Source: a virus. From it: a stretch of 29,494 bases of DNA. The notes under the pieces were generated by a model. That model ran no database searches, had not been told where the DNA came from, and saw nothing but the letters and a program-made list of their open reading frames with translations. The DNA is taken from IMG/VR virus record IMGVR_UViG_3300042197_004413, positions 1 to 29,494 of that record. One strand, 5' to 3'. Shown here in pieces: positions 14,786 to 28,017 of the stretch. The translations under genes were made by a program, and so were the position numbers. How positions within the stretch are numbered: the stretch's first letter is position 1; each line of letters opens with the position of its first letter.

Positions 14786-16549
14786 ATGGCTTCCATCACT
14801 GCCGAACTCGCCCTGGAAATCTCCAAGTTCCAGTCTGCTCTCAAGCAGGCTCAGAACTCGTTGAAGGGCTTTCGTGGTCAGGCTCAGCAACAGGGCAATG
14901 GCCTGGGTCAGACCCTCTTTGCGGGGGTGGGTAAGGCGGCGGCCGGGGTGGGCGCGATGGTCGCAGGTGCCCTGGCCGCTGCCGGTCTGGGCAAGGTGAT
15001 GTCGGGGGCGATTGAACGGGCGGTCAGCGATGAGCAACTGCAGGTGAGCTTCGACGTGTTGGTGGGCGATTCGACAAAGGCCAAGGAAACCATTGAGTCA
15101 TTGCGCCGCCTGGGTGCCGAAACGCCTTTTGAGTTCCCTGAATTGGCTGAGGCTGGCAAGAAGCTGATCGCCTTTGGGGAGGGCGCGGATTCTGTTACTG
15201 AAACTCTGCGTCGCATCGGGGACGTCTCCAGCGGCATCCAGGCACCGATTGGCGAGATTACCGAGATCTACGGTAAGGCGCGCGTGCAGGGGCGGTTGTT
15301 CGCGGAAGACATCAATCAACTTACTGGCCGCGGTATCCCAGTCATCCAGGAGTTCGCCCGCCAACTCGGGGTGACGGATGCCGAGGTCAAGCAGATGGCA
15401 AGCGATGGACGCATAAGCTTCGCCAATCTCGAACAGGCGTTTATCAGTCTGACCTCGGAGGGTGGCAAGTTTGGCGGCATGATGGCCCGGCAGAGCCGCA
15501 CCGTGGGTGGGTTATGGTCCACACTGAAGGACAATGTGGGCGAGGTGTTGCTCTCCTTTGGTCAGCCCATCAATGACGCCCTGAGACCCATGCTGGATGC
15601 GGCCATTGAAAAGGTGGGCCTGCTCAAGGAGGCAGCAGCGAGGGTTGGCGCGGCGGTGTCGGCAGGCATGAAGGCGGTGGTCGCCATCTTCCAGGAGTTC
15701 AGCGGGGCGGAAATGGGCAAGCTTGCTCTCGACTCACTCACCCTGGCATTCAAGGAAGCGGTGAACCTGCTCTATAAAAGTTTGGTGGGATCGTTCTTCG
15801 CCGCTGTGCAGATGCTGGTCGAGCAGGTGAAGAGCGTCATCTTACTGTTCTCCATCCTGACAACGGCGGAGTTTTGGAAGGGACTCGGTAATGTCCTGCT
15901 CGGACTGGCACGGAGCTTTGGGGCGGCGATGCTGGAGTTCATCGCTCAAGCGGTAGAGAACCTCAAAACCATTCCAGGGGTGTCGGCGTTGCTGGGCGAT
16001 GCCGACCAGTTTTTCCGTGACGTGGCCCAGGAGGCGCGCAGCCAGGCGGAATCCAACTATGCAACAGGTTCGGACGCCTTTGCGCCCTTAATTGATAGGG
16101 TTCAGCAGCGGATCGCTGAAACCTTTGAGAACGTGGCCGGAGCGTTCCAAGATAACTTCAGTCGGGCTGCCACGATCTTCGACACCTCCGAGGAACAGGG
16201 GCGTTTAGAGGAGGCGGCCCGTCGCGTTCGCGACCGAGTGCAAGCCAACCAAGCGCAGGCAGCGGCGAAACCGAAGGCGACTGCTGTTCCTGGAGTGAAT
16301 GGCATGGGGAATGCGGAAGTCGGCAAGACGCGCATGGCGCCGGGGCTGTTTGCCTCAGCGGTCAATCTGATCATGGGCAGGTCAGCCAATGAACTGATCT
16401 TGGATGAGAGCAAAAAGCAGACGGCCAAGCTCGAAGCCATTGATCGCAAGTTGGGCGAGATGAACCGTAACCTGGAAAAGCCGCCTCCCCAGCGGGCAGT
16501 GGTCGCCGCTCCAGTAATGCCATTCGACACCGTGGCCCGGTTTGCATGA
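14786..16549 (+). CDS. Tape measure protein
   Basis: 587 residues. A tape-measure N-terminal domain is clear: LQVSFDVLVGDSTKAKETIE, RRLGAETPFEFPELAEAGKK, IAFGEGADSVTETLRRIGDV, and GKARVQGRLFAEDINQLTGR followed by GIPVIQEFA. A long helical region with hydrophobic segments (for example LTLAFKEAVNLLYKSLVGSF and VILLFSILTTAEFWKGLGNV) follows, then an Ala/Lys-rich linker and a C-terminal helix LEAIDRKLGEMNRNLE. From the usual 1.5 angstrom per residue rule, the tail would be short, somewhat under 90 nm. It confirms a non-contractile or contractile long tail rather than a podovirus. No sheath gene is seen, so siphovirus type is favoured. Confidence 0.92.
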   Translation: MASITAELALEISKFQSALKQAQNSLKGFRGQAQQQGNGLGQTLFAGVGKAAAGVGAMVAGALAAAGLGKVMSGAIERAVSDEQLQVSFDVLVGDSTKAKETIESLRRLGAETPFEFPELAEAGKKLIAFGEGADSVTETLRRIGDVSSGIQAPIGEITEIYGKARVQGRLFAEDINQLTGRGIPVIQEFARQLGVTDAEVKQMASDGRISFANLEQAFISLTSEGGKFGGMMARQSRTVGGLWSTLKDNVGEVLLSFGQPINDALRPMLDAAIEKVGLLKEAAARVGAAVSAGMKAVVAIFQEFSGAEMGKLALDSLTLAFKEAVNLLYKSLVGSFFAAVQMLVEQVKSVILLFSILTTAEFWKGLGNVLLGLARSFGAAMLEFIAQAVENLKTIPGVSALLGDADQFFRDVAQEARSQAESNYATGSDAFAPLIDRVQQRIAETFENVAGAFQDNFSRAATIFDTSEEQGRLEEAARRVRDRVQANQAQAAAKPKATAVPGVNGMGNAEVGKTRMAPGLFASAVNLIMGRSANELILDESKKQTAKLEAIDRKLGEMNRNLEKPPPQRAVVAAPVMPFDTVARFA

Positions 16550-17238
16550 GCAACCCTTTCCAAATGCTGGGACTGTCCGGCAGCCGCGATGAGCGTGGGC
16601 TGATCTCTTTGGCTATCCCGTGGAATTGCGCCACGCTGGCTGAAACGCTGTCGGTGGGCGGCGCCTTCCCGTTTGGTCTTCCTGAGGTGGGGCGAGCTAT
16701 CAGCCAACTCGACGATGGTTCCTACCAAGTCACGATCAACTTTCAGGGCATCGAGGACGCAGAAGGCCAGGCCGACAGCTTCGAGTTCGACTCCAGCTTT
16801 CGAGAGGAGCCCATCGAAAGCCATCCATCCATTGACCAAATCAAGCGCCAGTATGGCGGTAACCTCAACAGCGACGGTCGCATCACTTTTCCCGAACGGC
16901 TTCCCGGTGGTTCCTCTGGCAGTGGCGGCTTGAACGGCAGACGAACGGGGACTGGGGATAAGAACCCGATGTTCGGCGTTACCACTTACTTGGTGCTCAA
17001 CGCAGTCTTTCGCCACACTTACCTGAGGCGGACCATTCCCAATGACCTGCTCAATCGGGTGGGCACCACGCGCAGCAATTTGCCCGAAGGATTTCCGACG
17101 CCTCCCGGCCGCAACTGGCTCGTCATGCCACCCAAAGTGGGCAAGCGCGGCAACGTCTATGAAATCGCCGAGGAATGGATGCTCAGCAAGCCGGGGCAAC
17201 TATGGCCAGAAGCCATCTATGGACTGATCGACCGATGA
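16546..17238 (+). CDS. Unknown tail-tip protein 1
   Basis: 230 residues. It starts with four-base overlap of the tape measure stop (ATGA). Sections include ISLAIPWNCATLAETLSVGG, DDGSYQVTINFQGIEDAEGQ and a C-terminal EIAEEWMLSKPGQLWPEAIY. No family recognised. A position just after the tape measure is that of distal tail or tail-hub proteins, but the usual Dit signatures are not apparent. It forms an overlapping run with the next two genes, probably translated together and assembled together. Confidence 0.55.
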   Translation: MSNPFQMLGLSGSRDERGLISLAIPWNCATLAETLSVGGAFPFGLPEVGRAISQLDDGSYQVTINFQGIEDAEGQADSFEFDSSFREEPIESHPSIDQIKRQYGGNLNSDGRITFPERLPGGSSGSGGLNGRRTGTGDKNPMFGVTTYLVLNAVFRHTYLRRTIPNDLLNRVGTTRSNLPEGFPTPPGRNWLVMPPKVGKRGNVYEIAEEWMLSKPGQLWPEAIYGLIDR

Positions 17239-17813
17239 ACCTGCGCGATCTCCATGTTCGAAAAGGCGATCCAGTGCTGCCTGCCTGGAACAAGCTGCTG
17301 GAATGGGCGAAGCAATTTCGCCTGTTCGCCGGGCGAGGCGTGCGGCTGACTCGAACCCCCAACGGCACGTTCATCGTGGCCGAGCAACACGGCACGCCCT
17401 GGGACCACCCATTCAAGGTCATGGCCAGCACGACCGAGGCGACAGTGTTGCTCGGCACACTCAACAACCAGGTGCCGACGATCTCGGGGAAACGGCTCGA
17501 CGAGGAGCCGACGCCAACGCTCAAATTGCTTGGAGGTCCAAATCGTGACCTGCGTTCCTGGATCTGCCTTGATGTACAGGTGGATGCCAAGACCGGTGCG
17601 ATTGACCCCGAAAACCCAAAGGCCGTGATCATCACTCATTCCAGAGAGCCCGAGTCGCGTGAATTGGGCAGACACGCGCTGGCGATGCTCATCTGGAATC
17701 CTGATCGAACCACGATCCGACGTGCCCACCAGATCACCCACTTCAACCTTCAGCACCGCTTCATCAAAGCGCAGGTTGGCAAACCGTCACGTCACTTGTT
17801 ATGGCCCGCATGA
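17235..17813 (+). CDS. Unknown tail-tip protein 2
   Basis: 192 residues from ATG 17235, which overlaps the previous stop by four bases; the longer open frame upstream is rejected for that reason. It opens MNLRDLHVRKGDPVLPAWNK and LLEWAKQFRLFAGRGVRLTR, then NGTFIVAE, a 'helix then long-strand' start seen in several phage structural proteins that bind to repeats along the tail. The middle has AVIITHSREPESRELGRHAL. No family recognised. Its start and that of the next protein are alike in pattern (helix, then NGT or G-rich strand). Confidence 0.5.
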   Translation: MNLRDLHVRKGDPVLPAWNKLLEWAKQFRLFAGRGVRLTRTPNGTFIVAEQHGTPWDHPFKVMASTTEATVLLGTLNNQVPTISGKRLDEEPTPTLKLLGGPNRDLRSWICLDVQVDAKTGAIDPENPKAVIITHSREPESRELGRHALAMLIWNPDRTTIRRAHQITHFNLQHRFIKAQVGKPSRHLLWPA

Positions 17814-18853
17814 ACGCTATCCCCGCCACCGCCTGGAATCGGCTTGTTGATTTTCTGGCCCGCAACCAAATCCTGGGCAGCACGGTGATGCGTTCCGGGA
17901 CTTGGCGGCATCCGTGGGAATTGACTCCGACTTGGGATGGGGATCGGCAGCAGTGGACGACGCGCATTGAACCTGGCTTTGTGAACGGCCTGGATGCAAC
18001 GATCAGCCTGCCTTACCGCGATGCTCCTGACGCAACCAGGCAGCGCTTGATTGCCCAGAAGCGCGATGCCGATGTCGCAGTGGATTGCTGGCTGACGGAG
18101 GAACCGCGGCTGCCGCTGACAGCTTGGCGAGCCATTGGAATCGATGCGGAGCCTGGGGCCACTTCGACGGGTGATGATGGCACATTGACGGTCAGCTTTG
18201 AAGCGGTGCCTGAGTTCTTCAAATCGCTAGGCGTGGGAGAACCCCCGAACCTCAGTTCGCAGATCACCGACCTGGGAGTTGTGCAACGAATTGGTGGCGA
18301 ACTGGAGGCGCTTGCAGAAGCCCGACTGCTGCGTGCCACAGAGTTGGTGCTCTACCAGGATCGTTTCGCAACAAGCACGCAGTGGGAGATGGGGGCTGGG
18401 TTTGATGGAACCAACGCCCAGTTCAGCGTCATCTACAAGATGCCTCCCAACATGAGGGATCGGGCCTACATCCGTGCGATGCCTCGATGGCAGGAGGTCG
18501 GTTCGACTCCGACTCAAGATCGACTGCGTGGAGACTGGACGGATAACCCTTTCGACGCGCGCCATTTGGCCACGGTGTATTTGGTTTCGCCACCTGGAAT
18601 GTCCTCCGAAAGTCAGCCGGATGGCACTTGGACGGCCTACGTGCGCAATCGTCTGTTCTGGAATCTCAACCATGCGAGCAGCGTGTTGGAACCGGCGCTC
18701 AAGCGCGAGAACCTGGTGCTCAACACCGGTTTGGCGGCGGGCTTGCTGGATAGCGTCGGCAACCGGATCCTGGCGGTCATCAACGACCAGAACGCGGCCA
18801 TCGCTGAGTTTCTCAATCGCAACACACTGGAAGGGAGGTTCTGGAGCACATGA
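17801..18853 (+). CDS. Unknown tail-tip protein 3
   Basis: 350 residues. It begins MARMNAIPATAWNRLVDFLA and contains GSTVMRSGTWRHPWELTPTW, a central SSQITDLGVVQRIGGELEAL and the conserved-looking VYLVSPPGMSSESQPDGTWT. It ends in a helix AVINDQNAAIAEFLNRNTLE. The N-terminal 'ATAWNRLVDFL' followed by a beta region parallels the start of the preceding protein (PAWNKLLEWAKQF), suggesting distant homology between the two. Overlap with the upstream gene is 13 nt. Function unknown; a virion tail protein is likely. Confidence 0.55.
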   Translation: MARMNAIPATAWNRLVDFLARNQILGSTVMRSGTWRHPWELTPTWDGDRQQWTTRIEPGFVNGLDATISLPYRDAPDATRQRLIAQKRDADVAVDCWLTEEPRLPLTAWRAIGIDAEPGATSTGDDGTLTVSFEAVPEFFKSLGVGEPPNLSSQITDLGVVQRIGGELEALAEARLLRATELVLYQDRFATSTQWEMGAGFDGTNAQFSVIYKMPPNMRDRAYIRAMPRWQEVGSTPTQDRLRGDWTDNPFDARHLATVYLVSPPGMSSESQPDGTWTAYVRNRLFWNLNHASSVLEPALKRENLVLNTGLAAGLLDSVGNRILAVINDQNAAIAEFLNRNTLEGRFWST

Positions 18854-19096: not shown

Positions 19097-19277
19097 TGGG
19101 TCACATGTTTTGTTGGACGAAAATGTCGTCCTTCAACCAAACGCTCGTGTGATCGTTACCGTCCTTGACGACTCGGACAAGGATCGTCAAGATTTTCTTC
19201 GTTTAGCAGCAAGTGGCCTCGCCTTGGCTTATAGTCCCGATGAAGTTGAGTATTCCGTCGATGACATTAAGCGATGA
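19065..19277 (+). CDS. Antitoxin of PemK/MazF-like pair
   Basis: 70 residues. MPLLSIPGHFDGSHVLLDEN followed by VVLQPNARVIVTVLDD is the usual opening of small antitoxins that begin with an AbrB-like or swapped-hairpin DNA-binding strand set ('IPGxYDGKxIxLDE-x-LPxNxxVxVTVL'). The C-terminal third, FLRLAASGLALAYSPDEVEY, is the likely toxin-binding part. It overlaps the toxin start by four bases (ATGA), which couples their translation. It is on the structural-gene strand and so may be read through by late transcription. Confidence 0.7.
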   Translation: MPLLSIPGHFDGSHVLLDENVVLQPNARVIVTVLDDSDKDRQDFLRLAASGLALAYSPDEVEYSVDDIKR

Positions 19278-19618
19278 AGGCTGGTCAGATTGTTTTGGCG
19301 CGGATTCAGCAGGCTGATGGACAATTGAAAACGCGTCCCGTGCTGGTGCTATGCCGGATGCCACCTTTTTCTGATTGCTTGGTGTGCGCGCTCAGTTCGA
19401 TTCTTCATCACGAGTGCGTTGGATTTGACGAAATCATTGATGTCACAGACCATGATTTTTCAGGGAGTGGATTAAAGGTTCCCTCACTGATTCGGTTGGG
19501 ACTTGTGGCAACGATTCCCGCTGCGGCTGTCCTTGGTGAGCTTGGGATTATTTCCGAAGAACGACTGATTAGGTTGAGAGCGAGACTCGCAAGACACATC
19601 GAATCGGGACGCCGGTGA
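19274..19618 (+). CDS. PemK/MazF-like endoribonuclease toxin
   Basis: 114 residues. MKAGQIVLARIQQADGQLKT followed by RPVLVLCRMP is the first two strands of the PemK/MazF SH3-like barrel, where the family normally has 'G-D-I-V-x-x-F-x-x-x-D-x-x-KxRPxLVL'. Later parts are LVCALSSILHHECVGFDEII and SGLKVPSLIRLGLVATIPAA, then a C-terminal helix. The arginine and serine positions expected for RNA cleavage (RP at 22-23, S-rich strand after CAL) are roughly in place. Together with the preceding gene it is a second toxin-antitoxin system of this prophage. Confidence 0.7.
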   Translation: MKAGQIVLARIQQADGQLKTRPVLVLCRMPPFSDCLVCALSSILHHECVGFDEIIDVTDHDFSGSGLKVPSLIRLGLVATIPAAAVLGELGIISEERLIRLRARLARHIESGRR

Positions 19619-19931: not shown

Positions 19932-21059
19932 TTAGCTCACTTGCTCGGCACTCGGCAACTCGATCGCTAGCGAGTAGCTGGTGCTGCGGCCACCCGCATC
20001 GTTTTTGATCAACACACCACGCTCTACCAGAGTGCTAATATCCCGAAGCGCAGTGTCCTCGGAACACTTCACGATTTTGGCATATTTTGAGGAAGTCATT
20101 TTCCCCTCAAAACCATCCATCAGCTTATTGATGATTTTGCGTTGCCGGTCATTCACTGGCTGCTGATTCACTTTTTCCCAAACACGGGCCTTTTGCAAAA
20201 CACCCGATAGAGTTTGATCCGCATTGGCTATCGCACGTCCCAAACAGGCGAGGAACCATTCCAGCCAGAGCGTCACGTCTAGTCCGTTATGCTGTCCGCG
20301 TTCGAGTTGGAGGTAGTATTCCTTCCTCTCTGCCTCGATTTGTGACGTCATGCTGTAGAACCTTTCCGCTGTGCCGTCGGCTCTGGCCATTTCCAGGTCC
20401 ACAATGGCTCGGCCAATGCGACCGTTGCCATCCTCGAATGGATGGATAGTCACAAACCAGAAATGGGCGATGGCCGCTTTGACTACCGGATCGACGCCAT
20501 TCTGAGCCTCAAACCAATGAAGCAGTGCGGTCATTTCCTGGTCCAGTTTTTCGGCCGAAGGCGCTTCAAAGTGGACTTTTTCGCGGCCAATCGGTCCCGA
20601 GACCACTTGCATTGGGCCGGCCTCGGCCGGGCGCCATGCGCCCACCGTGATTTTATGCATTCCACTTCTTCCTGTTGGGAACAAAGCGGCGTGCCAACCA
20701 AACAGTCTTTCAGTCGTGAGCGGTTTCGCGTAGTTTTGAGTGGCATCGAGCATCATCTCAACGATGCCCTCCACGTCGCGGCTCGCCACAGCCGCACCTG
20801 CGTATTCCAATCCCAGGCGGCGGGCGATGGACGAACGCACTTGCTCCACATCCAGTTTCTCCCCTTCGATCGCACTGGATTTCACGACGTCTGCCGTTAA
20901 AGTTGAAAGCTTCGCCTCAGAACGGAGCCGGAACCCCAAACCCTCCATTCTGCCAAGCAAACGCCCTTGTCGATGACGAACATCCGCCAACGCTGCTGAC
21001 AGTTTTGCATCATCCCAGGTGAGTTTCGGCCAATCGGCGAGTTTGTGTATGTACGGCAT
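19932..21059 (-). CDS. Fic-domain AMP-transferase with N-terminal inhibitory motif
   Basis: 375 residues from ATG 21059, which has a GGAG ribosome site; the open frame continues upstream to 21122. MPYIHKLADWPKLTWDDAKL begins a DUF4172-like N-terminal domain. SSAIEGE (61-67) fits the class II inhibitory motif (S/T)xxxE(G/N) that keeps Fic proteins inactive. The Fic core HPFEDGNGRIGR (206-217) is complete, so it should transfer AMP or another nucleotide group to a target. The last ~60 residues form a winged-helix-like domain (SKYAKIVKCSEDTALRDIST), likely DNA-binding. It is opposite to the tail operon and has its own operator cluster. Inference: a moron used in host or phage-competitor control. 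Confidence 0.9.
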   Translation of the reverse strand: MPYIHKLADWPKLTWDDAKLSAALADVRHRQGRLLGRMEGLGFRLRSEAKLSTLTADVVKSSAIEGEKLDVEQVRSSIARRLGLEYAGAAVASRDVEGIVEMMLDATQNYAKPLTTERLFGWHAALFPTGRSGMHKITVGAWRPAEAGPMQVVSGPIGREKVHFEAPSAEKLDQEMTALLHWFEAQNGVDPVVKAAIAHFWFVTIHPFEDGNGRIGRAIVDLEMARADGTAERFYSMTSQIEAERKEYYLQLERGQHNGLDVTLWLEWFLACLGRAIANADQTLSGVLQKARVWEKVNQQPVNDRQRKIINKLMDGFEGKMTSSKYAKIVKCSEDTALRDISTLVERGVLIKNDAGGRSTSYSLAIELPSAEQVS

Positions 21060-21092
21060 AATCTCCGCTTCGTTTGCGGGGATTAAAGCAGC

Positions 21093-21156
21093 TTTTCGCC
21101 GCAAATGCAACATTTGCCGCATATTGTGCGGTGAATGGAGTGTGTTTTCACCGCAA
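21093..21156 (-). promoter_or_regulatory. Operator cluster upstream of fic
   Basis: Three copies of TTCNCCGCA-type half sites: TTTTCGCCGCAA (21093-21104), its inverted form TTGTGCGGTGAA (21124-21135) and TTTTCACCGCAA (21145-21156). The last two form a perfect 9-bp inverted repeat (TGCGGTGAA / TTCACCGCA, 11-nt spacer). A further perfect repeat GCAAATG-CAA-CATTTGC is at 21101-21117. It lies 34-97 nt before the Fic start. Binding by the winged-helix end of the Fic protein itself is a plausible inference. Confidence 0.65.
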
Positions 21157-21263: not shown

Positions 21264-23735
21264 ATGCAGGCTCTTCTCTATTGCAATCTCTCCACACGCA
21301 CGGTTTCCGAGCAACTTACCGGTTCGGCCTTCAATTGGCCGAGGGTGGTGGCGGGGGACCATCTGACGCTTAGCTTGCGATTCGCTGAGAAGATCGATGG
21401 TCAAGCCATTGAAGTTTCGCGTGTGGTGCGGCGACTGCGAGCCTCGGTTGGTCGCCTTGACACTAGGCCGGAGCAGGGGAGTTATCGGCTCCGACTGGGT
21501 AATGCGGCGGCCCAAGAAGGAGTCAACCTGACCACGCCCATTCCTTGGAATGCCACCGCCGCACAAATGGCATCGGCATTCAATACGGTTCCTGCGTTGG
21601 TCGCAGCCTATGGAGCCGCCACCGTGGAGTTGGTGGATGGCAGCTACTTGGTCCGTTTTGCCTCGGCCCCTTCCGCGGTGCCTATGACCGTGGCGGAAAA
21701 CTCCCTGCTGCCCATCAGCTTTGCCCGGGTCATCCCCATCCTGTTCGACGGCAAGTGGGTGCATGAGCTGAGGCTCATCCAGGCTGGAGCCGCCTTCACC
21801 ACGGCCTTTGACCGTATCGTTCCACCTGCGCCGACGATCACCGCTCTGCAAAACGGAGGAGCCGATGGCGACATTGAGTGGAACGAGATTCAAAGGCTCT
21901 ACGTGCCTCCGGATTTCCGAGGCACCTATCAGCTTCGCCGCGGGTTCAAGAAGAGCGGGCTGCTCTCGCGTGAGGACGGTGCGGAGCAAATCACCGCTGC
22001 CATCGAAGCCCTCGCCGACGAGGACGGAACCTTTGTGGTCACGAACCCAACTGGGAACACCGCCCACATCGAATTCACGGGCAGCATGGAGGGCACCAAT
22101 CAGGCTTTGCTCGATGTGACCGTGTTCGATGCCCCGGAGGGAGACGTCACCTTCACGCTCAGCCTCAACACTCCTGAACTACGGTCCTTGATGCGGGAGG
22201 CCGATCCCAAGACGGGCGAACTCAAACTGCCCTTCGAGGTGGAGGTGACCTTTGAGGACGAGCACGATGAGGACATCCTGCATCCGGTGGCGGTGATTCG
22301 CACCGAGCTGACCTTGGCCAACGAACTTATCTGGGAGGAACTCGCCACAGCTCAGAACATCGACTGGTTGCGTCCGCCGCTTCCCAAGGACTATGTGCCG
22401 TTCACACCCGACCAGATTGCGACGGGCATCCCCTACTACCACACCACCCTGGGAAATGGTTCGGCTGTGGCGTTCGTGATCGATCACAACCTTAACACGG
22501 AAGCGATCCATGTCACGCTGCGCCAAAACGCTCCTGGAGGTCGGCTGCTCTCCATTCCGGAGGACTACTCGATCACCATCGAGGGGCCCAGCAGTATTAC
22601 CGTCTCTCTTGCAGCCGGGGCATCTGCACCCGCAGTGGGTGGACTTGCCATTGCCGTCCTGGGCGGATCTCCGGTGGCCGCCTTCAACGTCCATGGCCAC
22701 ACGATCGCTCAAATCCAGAACCTCCAACTCATCCTCGATCAACTGGGGGCGGCGGTGAGCGAGTTGCAGTCCCTCGTGCCTCAAGGCGGCCTGACTGCGG
22801 AAGCGGCCAATCAAACAGGCCCCATCGCCCAGTGGACGTTGCCTGTGTTTCTTGATCTGTATCCGACGAGGCAGACGGTGACTGAGGAAATCGAGTCCCT
22901 GGCCGACCTGACGCCTGCTTTACTTGCCTCGCTCGACATTCGTGACGGCGGCCTGCTTCCCGCGATCCATCAGGCCACTTTCCTGGCGCTGCCTGGAGTG
23001 GTGGATTACAGCGCCAGCTTCAAGGGCAAGGTCTATCAGAACCAGACCACTGCGGCCATCCGCATCCCGGGTGGCAAAGGGCGACGGTCCATGGATGTGC
23101 AGCCCGGTGAGTTTGCTTCCTTTGATGGGCGGGTCTGGTATAAGGTCCAGCGCTTCGGTTCCGAAACCAGCTTCTACCCGGCCGACTTCAATCGCGAACT
23201 CTTCACCCTGGCGCTCAACGACAAGCAACTGCGCCTGAAGAAAACCTTTGAGCTGAAGTTCGGCTTCGAGTGCGCCATCCTGACCAATCGACTCGCTTCC
23301 CAAGCCGAGTTCGCCAACTCGATCTTCAATACCGAGGCTCAGTGGCAGGTTGTGCTTGATTGGGGCGAGTTCGCCCAGGAAAGCAGTCCCGCCACCACGG
23401 GTGCCAACTTCAAGAACATCACCTGGAACCCAACGCCCATCCTGGCGCACCGGTTCTTCGTCACTCATACCGCCGTGGCTCACACCTTTGGCTGCCGCAT
23501 CAGTCGCAGTGCCAGCAACGTTCTGGCATGCAGCCGCTTGCTCTATGGCGGGGAGGAGGGCGGTGCGTCCTGTCCCACAACGGCCAACTTCGCCATCCGC
23601 GCCCGACTGCTGCGATTCGACACGCGCGACACTGTGAGCGACCCGCGCGGATTGGTCGCTTTGCTGGGTCTGGATCGGCAAATCGTCTCCGAGGAAACCG
23701 GCAGCAGTGAAACAGGCCGCGCCATCATTCGCTGA
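21264..23735 (+). CDS. Large tail fibre or tail-tip protein
   Basis: 823 residues. The N-terminal part, MQALLYCNLSTRTVSEQLTG then WPRVVAGDHLTLSLRF, resembles the beginning of virion adhesion proteins of related prophages. The central part contains repeated beta domains (FRGTYQLRRGFKKSGLLSRE; PEGDVTFTLSLNTPELRSLM) and a helix LQLILDQLGAAVSELQSLVP likely to trimerise. The C-terminal part has CAILTNRLASQAEFANSIFN and LGCRIS-type beta strands with several cysteines. Large size, beta content and a central trimerisation helix favour a fibre or receptor-binding protein. No lambda gpJ-type signature was found. The 5' end has a decayed duplicate 1.6 kb upstream. Confidence 0.7.
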   Translation: MQALLYCNLSTRTVSEQLTGSAFNWPRVVAGDHLTLSLRFAEKIDGQAIEVSRVVRRLRASVGRLDTRPEQGSYRLRLGNAAAQEGVNLTTPIPWNATAAQMASAFNTVPALVAAYGAATVELVDGSYLVRFASAPSAVPMTVAENSLLPISFARVIPILFDGKWVHELRLIQAGAAFTTAFDRIVPPAPTITALQNGGADGDIEWNEIQRLYVPPDFRGTYQLRRGFKKSGLLSREDGAEQITAAIEALADEDGTFVVTNPTGNTAHIEFTGSMEGTNQALLDVTVFDAPEGDVTFTLSLNTPELRSLMREADPKTGELKLPFEVEVTFEDEHDEDILHPVAVIRTELTLANELIWEELATAQNIDWLRPPLPKDYVPFTPDQIATGIPYYHTTLGNGSAVAFVIDHNLNTEAIHVTLRQNAPGGRLLSIPEDYSITIEGPSSITVSLAAGASAPAVGGLAIAVLGGSPVAAFNVHGHTIAQIQNLQLILDQLGAAVSELQSLVPQGGLTAEAANQTGPIAQWTLPVFLDLYPTRQTVTEEIESLADLTPALLASLDIRDGGLLPAIHQATFLALPGVVDYSASFKGKVYQNQTTAAIRIPGGKGRRSMDVQPGEFASFDGRVWYKVQRFGSETSFYPADFNRELFTLALNDKQLRLKKTFELKFGFECAILTNRLASQAEFANSIFNTEAQWQVVLDWGEFAQESSPATTGANFKNITWNPTPILAHRFFVTHTAVAHTFGCRISRSASNVLACSRLLYGGEEGGASCPTTANFAIRARLLRFDTRDTVSDPRGLVALLGLDRQIVSEETGSSETGRAIIR

Positions 23736-23743
23736 TTATCGCT

Positions 23744-24478
23744 ATGCCTGCTCCAATCCTCAGTCAGATCACTTCCATTCACTCAATCCCGATTGGCTCA
23801 GCCTGGTATTTTCAGCCCGCCTTGGCGTCGGCATCCTCGGGCGCATCAAGCTGGACTGCCACAGGGCTGCCTCCCGGTCTTTCCATCAACACCTCAACCG
23901 GGCTCATTTCAGGTGTGCCCAGTGCTGAAGGGGTCTATGACGTGCGACTGCGTGCGGTCAACGCCAGCGGGGGTTCGCCATGGCTTGTCTTTCCCATGGG
24001 AGTGCGCGCCACGGGGCAGGAGTCTGGAACAGCCAAGCGGGTGAATATCAATTTGCAGACAGGCGCGGTGTATTCACCCGACAACAATGTGATGTTCCAA
24101 GTGAAGTCGGGCGACCTGATGCCGGTGGCGGTGGGCTTCGAGGACGAAGGAAAGCTGCTGGACATTCCGATGCTATCGCTGATCAACTTTGCCATCAAAG
24201 AGACCGATGACGAGCCGGTCATCCCCCTTAACGATGGATTGTTCAGGAAGATTGGGGCTGGCGTCTACACTCGCTACGTCACGTTTCTGGATTTGAGGAG
24301 CCAGGCTTTGAGAAACGCCCTGTCGAACTGGGAGCATCCCAAAGGCACCAACTTTGTCGGTCTCGCCGAGATCGAGTGGGTCTGGATTGAAAGCCGACCA
24401 GGTTTCCCCACGCCGCAGATCGCCGCCAGAACGTCTGGCACGTTCTCCCTGGCTGCCTTTCGTGAATTGAAGCCATGA
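23744..24478 (+). CDS. Virion protein with putative Ig (He_PIG) domain
   Basis: 244 residues. TGLPPGLSINTSTGLISGVP followed by SAEGVYDVRLRAVNASGG (about residues 47-85) is the diagnostic core of the putative-Ig (He_PIG) fold common in phage tail and bacterial surface proteins. The second half (KRVNINLQTGAVYSPDNNVM; IPMLSLINFAIKETDDEPVI; ending RTSGTFSLAAFRELKP) is a separate beta domain of unknown family. The start lies 8 nt after the fibre gene stop, and the next gene overlaps by four bases. Role: probable adhesion or fibre-decoration protein. Confidence 0.75.
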   Translation: MPAPILSQITSIHSIPIGSAWYFQPALASASSGASSWTATGLPPGLSINTSTGLISGVPSAEGVYDVRLRAVNASGGSPWLVFPMGVRATGQESGTAKRVNINLQTGAVYSPDNNVMFQVKSGDLMPVAVGFEDEGKLLDIPMLSLINFAIKETDDEPVIPLNDGLFRKIGAGVYTRYVTFLDLRSQALRNALSNWEHPKGTNFVGLAEIEWVWIESRPGFPTPQIAARTSGTFSLAAFRELKP

Positions 24479-25716
24479 GTACCAGCGGACCAACTGGGCC
24501 GGCGCTGATGCACTTTCCGCTGGCTGAAACTTATGCGTTCTATGGACGCCGAATTCGCCGTGCTTCCTGGAAACAGATGCCGCCTGATGCGGTGACAGCC
24601 AGCACGCCTCAGCCGACCAAGCCGGTGCGCTGGTTCAGTTATCTGGGTGGGCTGTGGTTTGTGGCGAGCTGGCGCATTACCAGCGGCAAGGTGGAATCCT
24701 TTGAACGGGTGGTCGAGGCCGCAGACTTTACCAGGGAGGACATGCTCGCCTGGGACTGGACCACTCTGGGTCCCGAATGCGACATAGGCAGCGGGGATTG
24801 CTCCTGCTCGGGCAATTCGGCCTTACTGGCGGTGCAGCCATTCAGCGAAGAGGCGGTCAATGTGGAGATTGGTGTGAGTTTCGACCTTCGGTTCGGTAAC
24901 ACGCGCCAGGGTGACTTTGGTTGCGCCCTGCCACCAGCTGATCCTCGAGACTTCGGCGGTGGGAGCTGCGAATGCTCTGGAAGCGGTGGAACGGGAGGGA
25001 ATGGCACGGGTAACTGCCCGCCCGGCTTCAAACGGGTTAACGGCATGTGCATCCCGGATGGCGATCCGCCCGACCCAGAATGCCCTGACTGCAATGGAGG
25101 CAACGGATCAGGAGGTAATGGAGGAGGTGGCGGCGGCGATGGCGGCAGCGGAGGAGGGGGTGGTAGTGGTGACGATGGCGGCGGGGGAGGTGATGATGGC
25201 AATGGTGGAGGTGGCGGCGGAGGTGGTGGGGGAGGTGGTGGCGGTGGACGCCCGCCTCGTCCGCCGAGGCCGCCCGAGCCCACCTGCACTTGCTCGCTGG
25301 AAATGACTCGTGGTAGCGACGATTGCTATGATAAGACCGAGTATACCGCGACATCCGGTGGTCAAACGCTCGTCGAGAATTCCTGGTCAGGACATTTGAG
25401 CCTCAATGCGCCGGATGACGGACAGTTATGGTTCTATCGGGTCACGTTTCGTGGCAAAATCTTGGAGAGCGGGACCATGATCCCTGGCGACAACATTGGC
25501 ATCTTTACTGACACCGTGAGAGGCGAGCCAGGTCAGTCTTTTGGCATGAGCGCGTCGGTCAATAAGCCTCTCAGCACCGAGTCTTGCGACGACTCCTACT
25601 CCTGCACTTTCCCTGACTGGTGTCCGCCACCCCGCAGCGGCTCCAGTGGTCCCCGAACGCCTCCCGGCAGCGGTGGGACCCGGCGCTCCGGCGGCAACTA
25701 CGTCCCACCCCCTTAA
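24475..25716 (+). CDS. Gly/Cys-rich tail protein with Tad2-like N-terminal domain
   Basis: 413 residues in three parts. Residues about 10-95 resemble the DUF2829/Tad2 domain: LAETYAFYGRRIRRASWKQM at the front (the G-x-x-(I/V)-x-R-x-x-W motif) and FTREDMLAWDWTTL at the end (family 'DLLAxDWE'). Tad2 proteins of phages are known to bind the signal molecule of Thoeris defence. The middle has Cys pairs, including CPPGFKRVNGMCIPDG (EGF-like spacing), then a run of more than 60 mostly Gly/Asp residues encoded at about 25095-25250, then PRPP repeats. The C-terminal domain (TCSLEMTRGSDDCYDKTEYT) is beta-rich with four or more cysteines. The Gly hinge suggests a virion surface protein with mobile ends. 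Confidence 0.65.
   Translation: MSTSGPTGPALMHFPLAETYAFYGRRIRRASWKQMPPDAVTASTPQPTKPVRWFSYLGGLWFVASWRITSGKVESFERVVEAADFTREDMLAWDWTTLGPECDIGSGDCSCSGNSALLAVQPFSEEAVNVEIGVSFDLRFGNTRQGDFGCALPPADPRDFGGGSCECSGSGGTGGNGTGNCPPGFKRVNGMCIPDGDPPDPECPDCNGGNGSGGNGGGGGGDGGSGGGGGSGDDGGGGGDDGNGGGGGGGGGGGGGGGRPPRPPRPPEPTCTCSLEMTRGSDDCYDKTEYTATSGGQTLVENSWSGHLSLNAPDDGQLWFYRVTFRGKILESGTMIPGDNIGIFTDTVRGEPGQSFGMSASVNKPLSTESCDDSYSCTFPDWCPPPRSGSSGPRTPPGSGGTRRSGGNYVPPP
25095..25250 (+). repeat. Glycine-codon low-complexity tract
   Basis: About 50 consecutive GGN/GAY-type codons with mixed third bases, encoding a Gly-Asp-Ser hinge. Codon variation shows it is not a simple microsatellite. The C-rich opposite strand creates long proline-rich antisense frames that are not genes. 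Confidence 0.8.
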
Positions 25717-25728
25717 CACGTTTTCACC

Positions 25729-28017
25729 ATGCACCACGCCTACTGCTTTTTCTCCTTTAAGGGCGACTACGAATCGCTTCTGCAATCCATCCGCTCCATC
25801 CGGGCCTGCCATCCTACAGCCAAGATCGCGGTCTTCGATGATGGTCGCCACCCGCTGCCCAAGCCCCCACCGGCTGACTACTACGAGCGCACTTGGTTTC
25901 AGCGCGGCGGCAACCTCAATGGCCGTGAGTGCATCATGGGCGAACTACTCGCCTTTCAGAAGGCTGCACGGTTGTTCGGAGCGCAATGGGTCGCCAAGAT
26001 CGACTGTGACACGGTGGTCGTTGATGGGGCGAGAGCGTTCTCATTGCCTGCTTCAGTCCACTCAGACATTTACGGGGCTAGCTGGCACGAACATGGAGTC
26101 TGGGGGCCGTTTTACATTGTTTCGGTGCCCTTCATTTACCGAATGCTTGAGGCGATCAATGGCTTTGGTGGGTTGCCTGACGAGGAAGATTTTGGTATGA
26201 CGGCATTGGCCCGCCAAGCCCGGGGGCGCGTGACGATCGTCCCATGGGCTGAGCACTTCCTCAATGGGTTCGACTACCGCTTGAAGCAGTTTGATTTTGA
26301 GCGATTCCGCACAACCTGCGCCATCACCTGCGGCAATCGCATGCAACTGGGCGGGCCGGATCCTCGCGCGGTTCAGGCTCGGGCGATGCGCGGACTGGTC
26401 GACTACCTCCTAGAGGGCCGATCTTTCGACTGGGGGCAAGTATTGGAAGCTCACGAGGTGTTCAATGCCGTGGAGGATCCCAGGGCTGAGGACTCAAAAA
26501 AAAACGAGGCAGTTGCCGTCATTGCCCCGGTTGCAGCTCGAAAGCCTGAGCGTGTTGCCAAACTTGCGCCAAAGCCGCTAGTTCGTTGCGCAACGAACTA
26601 CTTAGTCGAATCCGGTGAACGGCCGTCGCTTTCGGTCGTGGTGATTGGGCGCAACAGCGCAGCGTTCCTCGGGGAGTGTCTGGCCTCCATCCAGGCGCAG
26701 ACGGTTCGACCCGATGAATGGGTCTATGTGGACGATGCGAGCGAGGACGACAGCGTCAACATCGCCCGGAGATTCGATGGCCTGCAGGTTCGTTCGTTGC
26801 GCAACCGAGTCGGGATGTGTGCTGCCCGCATGGTTGGGGTGGAGATGACAACTGGGGCGCTGATGCTGTTCGTGGACAGTGACAACATCTTGCCGCCCGA
26901 CTACCTGGCCACCATGATCGAGGACCTGGGAAGGAACCACGCCTTCGCCTACCCCTCCAAGACGTTCTTTGGCACCGAGGAGGCTTTGTATCGCCACAGG
27001 GAAGTCTATCCCAATGACCAGTGGCAACCGCCTGCTGCCGACCGCGCCAAGCTCTGGTCCCGCAACTACGCCGACACCTGCAGTTTGCTCCGTCGCGATG
27101 CGTTCCTGGCCGCCGGCGGCTGGCGCTCCAACCCGGCGGACACGATGTTCGACTGGGATTTGTTCCTGCGCATGAGCGGCAGAGGGTCGCATGTTCGCTC
27201 CCGAGCCCGGCTGGATTATCGGATCCACGAGAGTAATTGGAGCGCCAAGGAGCGCGACATGAGCCGTCGGAAGATGAACGGTCTGGTGCGGCGCCACGCG
27301 GCCACGATCACCGTGGGCTGCGTCTGGAGCGGTCGGATGGGGCAGCGCTTTGCCCGGATTTGGCTCAAGGCGCTCGCGGAGTCGCTTCAGGCCGCCGGCA
27401 AGACCGCAGAATTACTGATCCTCGATGACAGCAGCACGGGTTTCCCTGTGCGCGAGATCGGCCGGCACAAGGGGGTGTTCCCGGCGTTCTCAATCCAGCG
27501 CATCCACCGTGGAATGAAGGCCACCAAGCGGCGTCCTGATCGCCGAGCCACCGCCGAGTTCCTTGCACCAGCCTGTAACCGGATCCTCGACACATCTGCA
27601 GGGGATGTGGTCTGGTTCATCGAGGACGACATCGTCGTGCCGGTTCACGCGGCCGATGTGTTGTTGCGAGAACTGCTCCAGGCCGAGAAGACGCCGCGAG
27701 CCGCGGTGGGCGGTTGCTACCGTTCCCGACACGAGCCTGATCATTGGATTGCGGCCAACCTGGGCAGGAAGGTGAGTCACCTGATAGAGTTGCCTGAGGC
27801 CCCGACGCCCGTCCAGTTCACGGGCACCGGCTGCCTAATGGTCGCAAAGGACTTGGCTGCGGAGGTGAGGTTCGGCACTGAATGGATTTATCAAAGCCGC
27901 AGGGCAGCGGCTCATGATTGGGTGTTCGTCTGGCAATTGGATCAGCGGGGAACGTCGGTCATCCTGGTTCCGGAGGTGATTTGCCGTCACCACAGCAGCC
28001 TATTCACATGGGTCTAA
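25729..28017 (+). CDS. Triple glycosyltransferase-domain protein
   Basis: 762 residues with three GT-A-like units. Unit 1 (about 1-245): HHAYCFFSFKGDYESLLQSI, VFDDGR and metal motif KIDCDT (D92, D94). Unit 2 (about 299-525): a family-2-type enzyme, SLSVVVIGRNSAAFLGECLA, YVDDASEDDS and LFVDSDN (D383, D385), with FDWDLFLRMSG as the catalytic-base region. Unit 3 (about 525-762): ITVGCVWSGRMGQRF, LLILDDSST and WFIEDDIVVP (E632-D634). A linker (250-298) contains a nine-A run. It closes the tail operon and overlaps the integrase tail to tail by four bases. Possible acceptors are virion proteins, host surface polysaccharide or the modified phage DNA; the sequence does not decide. Confidence 0.85.
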   Translation: MHHAYCFFSFKGDYESLLQSIRSIRACHPTAKIAVFDDGRHPLPKPPPADYYERTWFQRGGNLNGRECIMGELLAFQKAARLFGAQWVAKIDCDTVVVDGARAFSLPASVHSDIYGASWHEHGVWGPFYIVSVPFIYRMLEAINGFGGLPDEEDFGMTALARQARGRVTIVPWAEHFLNGFDYRLKQFDFERFRTTCAITCGNRMQLGGPDPRAVQARAMRGLVDYLLEGRSFDWGQVLEAHEVFNAVEDPRAEDSKKNEAVAVIAPVAARKPERVAKLAPKPLVRCATNYLVESGERPSLSVVVIGRNSAAFLGECLASIQAQTVRPDEWVYVDDASEDDSVNIARRFDGLQVRSLRNRVGMCAARMVGVEMTTGALMLFVDSDNILPPDYLATMIEDLGRNHAFAYPSKTFFGTEEALYRHREVYPNDQWQPPAADRAKLWSRNYADTCSLLRRDAFLAAGGWRSNPADTMFDWDLFLRMSGRGSHVRSRARLDYRIHESNWSAKERDMSRRKMNGLVRRHAATITVGCVWSGRMGQRFARIWLKALAESLQAAGKTAELLILDDSSTGFPVREIGRHKGVFPAFSIQRIHRGMKATKRRPDRRATAEFLAPACNRILDTSAGDVVWFIEDDIVVPVHAADVLLRELLQAEKTPRAAVGGCYRSRHEPDHWIAANLGRKVSHLIELPEAPTPVQFTGTGCLMVAKDLAAEVRFGTEWIYQSRRAAAHDWVFVWQLDQRGTSVILVPEVICRHHSSLFTWV
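26496..26504 (+). repeat. A9 homopolymer in the GT interdomain linker
   Basis: Nine consecutive A bases encode KK within SKKN between glycosyltransferase units 1 and 2. A gain or loss of one base leads to stop codons within about 40 codons, so slippage would yield a unit-1-only protein. Confidence 0.6.

Follow-up and report, generated by a model that had tools for sequence, protein, structure and literature searches.

A gene of IMG/VR virus record IMGVR_UViG_3300042197_004413 raises the question of whether the Tad2 (DUF2829) domain, so far known solely from small, free-standing sponges for immune evasion, also occurs in a phage tail protein, and what such a domain would do there. The analysis covered the whole stretch of 29,494 bases, hereafter the window, together with related loci from viral and bacterial sequence collections.

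The fusion gene and its place in the tail module

The window contains terminase, portal, S49 protease, major capsid and tape measure genes, and an integrase is encoded on the minus strand at its right end. It represents a temperate, siphovirus-like phage or prophage, whose host is most probably a member of the Verrucomicrobiota. The tail module starts with the tape measure gene and three conserved genes (14786-18853, plus strand), identified through TMP_3 (E 5e-24), the PHROG tape measure profile (6.6e-66) and synteny. Further along, an 823-aa tail-type protein (21264-23735, plus strand) has weak PHROG matches to tail and head-decoration proteins and is a conserved upstream partner by synteny and phmmer (E down to 1e-241). 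It is followed by an Ig-domain (He_PIG) protein (23744-24478, plus strand; PF05345, E 3e-11), conserved in 15 of 15 loci compared. The gene under study, an open reading frame of 413 aa (24475-25716, plus strand), appears translationally coupled to this partner, its ATG overlapping the stop of the Ig-domain gene in the ATGA at 24475-24478. The order of tape measure, three conserved genes, tail protein of about 800 aa, Ig protein and Tad2-like protein was kept in all 15 loci as far as each locus reaches, and in every one of them the Tad2-like fusion gene is the last of the tail module.

Two further genes lie inside the tail module of the window, one for a MazF-like protein (19274-19618, plus strand; PF02452, 3.9e-9) and one for a Fic protein with DUF4172 (19932-21122, minus strand; PF13776, 5e-33; PF02661, 6e-18). 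They are flanked by the conserved gene at 17801 and the gene of the 823-aa tail protein, an arrangement that resembles a cargo (moron) slot. On the 3' side the fusion gene is adjoined by a possibly linked gene for a 762-aa family 2 glycosyltransferase (25729-28017, plus strand; PF00535, 9e-31), a large enzyme that may modify the host surface or the tail protein. The same slot is filled in some relatives; GT2 look-alike genes occur there in one subgroup (L132, L150, L154, L156, L157 and L158), of which only the L132 copy was matched by phmmer to the window gene (E 2e-4).

Within the 413-aa protein, the Tad2-like domain comprises residues 12-96 (24508-24762, plus strand) and includes the motifs GRRIRRASW (residues 24-32) and FTREDMLAWDW (residues 85-95). 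A segment containing six cysteines (residues 113-205; 24811-25089, plus strand) leads to a glycine-rich hinge (residues 207-267; 25093-25275, plus strand) that ends in RPPRPPRPP; glycine makes up 63% of residues 206-268. The C-terminal domain (25276-25650, plus strand) has no Pfam match and is homologous across the family described below. The original prediction of a fusion to a glycine-hinged protein is supported, the protein being encoded in a tail module.

Relationship of the N-terminal domain to Tad2

Taken by itself, the window sequence is only suggestive of Tad2. At E ≤ 1, neither Pfam nor PHROGs returned anything for the full-length protein. Residues 1-112 aligned with positions 1-71 of the 73 positions of PF11195 (E 0.58), and the trimmed domain reached E 0.34 and 11.9 bits, under the curated Pfam cut-off of 25 bits for this profile. 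Since PF11195 had been named before the search of 24,736 models, this E-value corresponds to about 1.4e-5 for a single test. Scored as a single sequence against the Tad2 profile, the window member obtained 7.0 bits, within the range of the top shuffles (best of 3,300 shuffled sequences, 7.6 bits). Searching IMG/VR and GTDB contigs directly with this domain yielded no relatives, and its matches among annotated phages were at chance level; the best of these, to Streptococcus phage Javan37, was rejected because it obtained no score with either profile. A phmmer match to 6v04 (SRPBCC; E 0.006) was absent from later profile searches and was likewise discarded. Structure prediction for the window domain gave a poor model (pLDDT 60.7), with which PDB fold searches produced no clear match.

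Relatives were found via phages that share a neighbouring tail gene or the terminase with the window. The Tad2-like fusion protein was present in 9 of 50 fetched phage records (weakest E 5.9e-4), and two profile searches added further loci, giving a family set of 33 members with the window included. The genome collection contributed 13 loci, all of them titled as Verrucomicrobiota, and outside the genomes of this phylum the family was encountered here solely in related viral contigs. A sample of 388 Verrucomicrobiota genomes yielded two clear family members and one weak match, which sits in a long membrane-like open reading frame and is probably false.

With the family in hand, PF11195 matched 23 of the 33 members, albeit weakly (best E 5.7e-4), and all eight PF11195 record matches among viral relatives fell below the cut-off. 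Single-sequence scores with the Tad2 profile equalled or exceeded the best of the 3,300 shuffled sequences in 29 of the 33 members. When the family profile was searched against 177,635 PDB sequences, seven matches were returned at E up to 10, six of which, including the top four, were Tad2 or AcrIIA7. Weak family matches were also obtained to PHROGs 643, 1048 and 872, which are matched by phage Tad2 proteins too. The family was then compared by hhalign with 21 Tad2 sequences, using 200 column shuffles as the control. The local score was 40.6 against a shuffle maximum of 17.4, the global score 39.6 against 10.6, and the C-terminal half alone still scored 24.0 against 16.3. PF07221, a candidate with matches in six members (best E 0.02), fits no structural result and was set aside. 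Separately, the Verrucomicrobiota loci L170 and L179 encode canonical Tad2-like proteins with an extra N-terminal region (MKYIRxHxVEAExMTRGxY...SWCPKxxFE) that is common to PHROG 872.

The fold was modelled by AlphaFold2 on a shorter family member, L158 (77 aa), with a 33-row alignment that included the window, giving a pLDDT of 86.9 and a pTM of 0.74. In a Foldseek search of the PDB with this model, ranks 1-8 were all Tad2 (E 0.004-0.04, probability 1.00), with rank 9 at E 0.73. VIA-align placed ten Tad2, SptTad2, ModTad2 and AcrIIA7 entries at Z 8.6-9.6 (rmsd 1.8-2.0 over 61-64 residues), the next entry scoring 3.4. Several of the top matches among predicted viral structures were annotated as DUF2829 or Thoeris anti-defense 2-like. 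As firmly as prediction allows, the family has the Tad2 fold; for the window, this assignment follows from homology with L158, the two domains being 39% identical in the alignment.

The profile comparison proposed in the original prediction remained sub-threshold for the window at 11.9 bits but was clear at the alignment level, and the proposed structural comparison succeeded with the L158 model, the window's own model being poor. Neither of the refuting outcomes named there, a structure lacking the Tad2 fold or the want of any significant profile match, arose. We accept the Tad2-like domain, predicted at 24475-24780, because the profiles and structure of its relatives remove the doubt left by the window alone; the observation that the N-terminal domain is a distant relative of Tad2 holds.

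Pocket loops and the likely role of the domain

The core residues A10, G17, R22, W25, D84 and W85 (SPO1 numbering) are the same in all 33 members, that of the window among them. Two loop marks were then compared with the 21 reference Tad2 sequences, namely WNG after strand 1 and W-x-x-S before the last helix. W73 is found in all 21 Tad2 sequences and in none of the 33 family members, S76 in 20 of 21 versus 1 of 33, and N26 in 18 of 21 versus 1 of 33; G27 is kept in nine family members. Conversely, R17, T67 and W32 (L158 numbering) are invariant in the family, and P4 occurs in 32 of 33 members; none of these residues was seen in Tad2. In SPO1 Tad2 the messenger pocket is made up of loops beta1-beta2, beta3-beta4 and beta4-alpha3 together with strand beta4 and helix alpha3 (PMC12043709), and WNG and W-x-x-S mark two of these loops. 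The family domain thus appears to be a Tad2 fold without the loop marks typical of messenger sponges. Judged by its sequence, it does not resemble a functional Tad2 sponge. Since it lies below the Pfam cut-off, lacks this signature and is not free-standing, we file it as a separate branch of the Tad2 fold and not as a Tad2 protein.

The layout of the protein is shared by its relatives. In every complete fusion read, the Tad2-like domain comes first, a low-complexity hinge follows and the C-terminal domain is last, with a cysteine-containing stretch between the Tad2-like domain and the hinge in most of them. This stretch is expanded in one subgroup to CxDPPxCPPG...GCPxYxC repeats. The hinge, encoded by mixed synonymous codons, is poly-Gly, poly-Pro or (PPE)n, with tracts of about 10 to 46 residues in close relatives; slippage and recombination are candidate causes of the switching. 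Because its composition varies even among near relatives, its length and extension seem to matter rather than its sequence. Between the window and five relatives the N-terminal domain is 30-43% identical, about as conserved as the Ig protein (35-39%), whereas the C-terminal domain (20-45%) falls below the N-terminal domain in four of the five comparisons. Such a pattern fits an N-terminal head for anchoring or oligomerisation, a spacer and a distal domain that faces the host. Searched against Pfam, the C-terminal domains of the family gave no match better than E 0.059 and no recognised receptor-binding fold.

We consider it probable that the gene encodes a tail-tip or tail-fibre protein in which a reused Tad2 fold serves as an anchoring or oligomerisation head. 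The product would be a late structural protein of the phage tail, present in the virion. Its conserved N-terminal domain would dock on the distal tail or oligomerise there, as might be expected from Tad2 being a tetramer, while the cysteine-containing stretch and the Gly/Pro hinge would hold out the faster-changing C-terminal domain to meet the host surface, presumably in contact with a receptor. In one subgroup (L118, L119, L124, L128, L131, L148, L151 and L155) a short Tad2-like gene, encoding the domain plus about 50 aa, lies directly upstream of the fusion gene. This tandem is probably an old duplication, and the short paralogue and the fusion may form a mixed assembly.

The original prediction had also raised binding of a sugar or nucleotide on the virion surface, which is no more likely than a role in structure or anchoring. 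The domain could be a ligand module whose pocket has been reshaped for a host surface sugar, a nucleotide-sugar or another small molecule and which aids adsorption, a proposal that we regard as rather unlikely. Tad2 folds bind varied nucleotide ligands, as solved complexes with gcADPR, hisADPR and cGG demonstrate, the family has its own set of near-invariant residues (R17, T67, W32 and P4), and in the window, as in some relatives, the next gene downstream codes for a glycosyltransferase. The conservation pattern is, however, equally explained as structural, and the N-terminal part of a fibre is usually the anchor and not the binder. More broadly, there is a minor chance that the tail-displayed domain keeps a ligand pocket for use in infection, whether for a nucleotide immune signal or for a nucleotide or sugar of the host surface; if true, such a pocket on the tail would make one fold the common element of receptor binding and of anti-immune sponges.

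A third reading, that of an anti-Thoeris or anti-CBASS sponge which is part of the tail or made with it, and which acts in the cytoplasm late in infection or is delivered with the particle, strikes us as improbable. It is consistent with the fold being that of Tad2 and with free Tad2 genes scoring above the Pfam cut-off in 9 of the 388 Verrucomicrobiota genomes. Against it, the WNG and W..S motifs, which adjoin the pocket described in PMC12043709, have been lost, and the gene is locked in the tail module. The domain is also fused to a cysteine-containing, hinged sequence of extracellular type, a tail context that suggests a location outside the cell. The small number of copies on a particle would hardly suffice to titrate a messenger, and the reading requires cytoplasmic accumulation or delivery together with a pocket for which the sequence gives no evidence. 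Sequestering of an immune messenger by the domain is possible but unlikely, and the predicted Thoeris-signal sponge delivered with the particle finds no support. Finally, a chance resemblance, with a short pair of motifs in an unrelated small alpha/beta domain, would account for a window protein that falls under every threshold and a window model that matches nothing, but it can hardly be maintained when profile-profile scores at either end of the domain surpass every shuffle, the family model is matched by Tad2 structures alone and the PDB profile search returns almost nothing but Tad2.

Comparison with known tail and Tad2 proteins

As a tail-tip or tail-fibre protein, the fusion resembles those of siphoviruses, whose genes follow the tape measure and hub genes; the genes of the family likewise close the tail module. 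The resemblance extends to the layout of N-terminal domain, spacer and C-terminal domain, to the variable length of the hinge and to a C-terminal domain that is usually less conserved than the N-terminal one. We know of no tail-fibre N-terminal domain with a Tad2 fold, and our literature search, which left most subscription journals outside its reach, found no earlier report of a tail protein with a Tad2 or DUF2829 domain.

With Tad2/DUF2829 proteins (PF11195; SPO1 gp34.65, HgmTad2/AcrIIA7, SptTad2 and ModTad2) the family has in common the predicted fold (Z 8.6-9.6), the invariant core residues, the start M-x-F-x-x-A...G...R-x-x-W and the end D/E-x-x-A-x-D-W. It differs from them in lying below the PF11195 cut-off, in the loss of the WNG and W..S loop motifs and in its own near-invariant P, R, W and T. 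Whereas known Tad2 proteins are small and free, the domain is fused to a cysteine-containing segment, a hinge and a C-terminal domain in all full-length relatives, and its gene sits in the tail module. A large, syntenic branch of the Tad2 fold that is fixed in phage tails suggests a structural life for this fold as well, and raises the testable question of which came first, virion parts later recruited as sponges or sponges later built into virions. A further lesson is that a Tad2-like match in a phage genome should not automatically be taken as anti-Thoeris.
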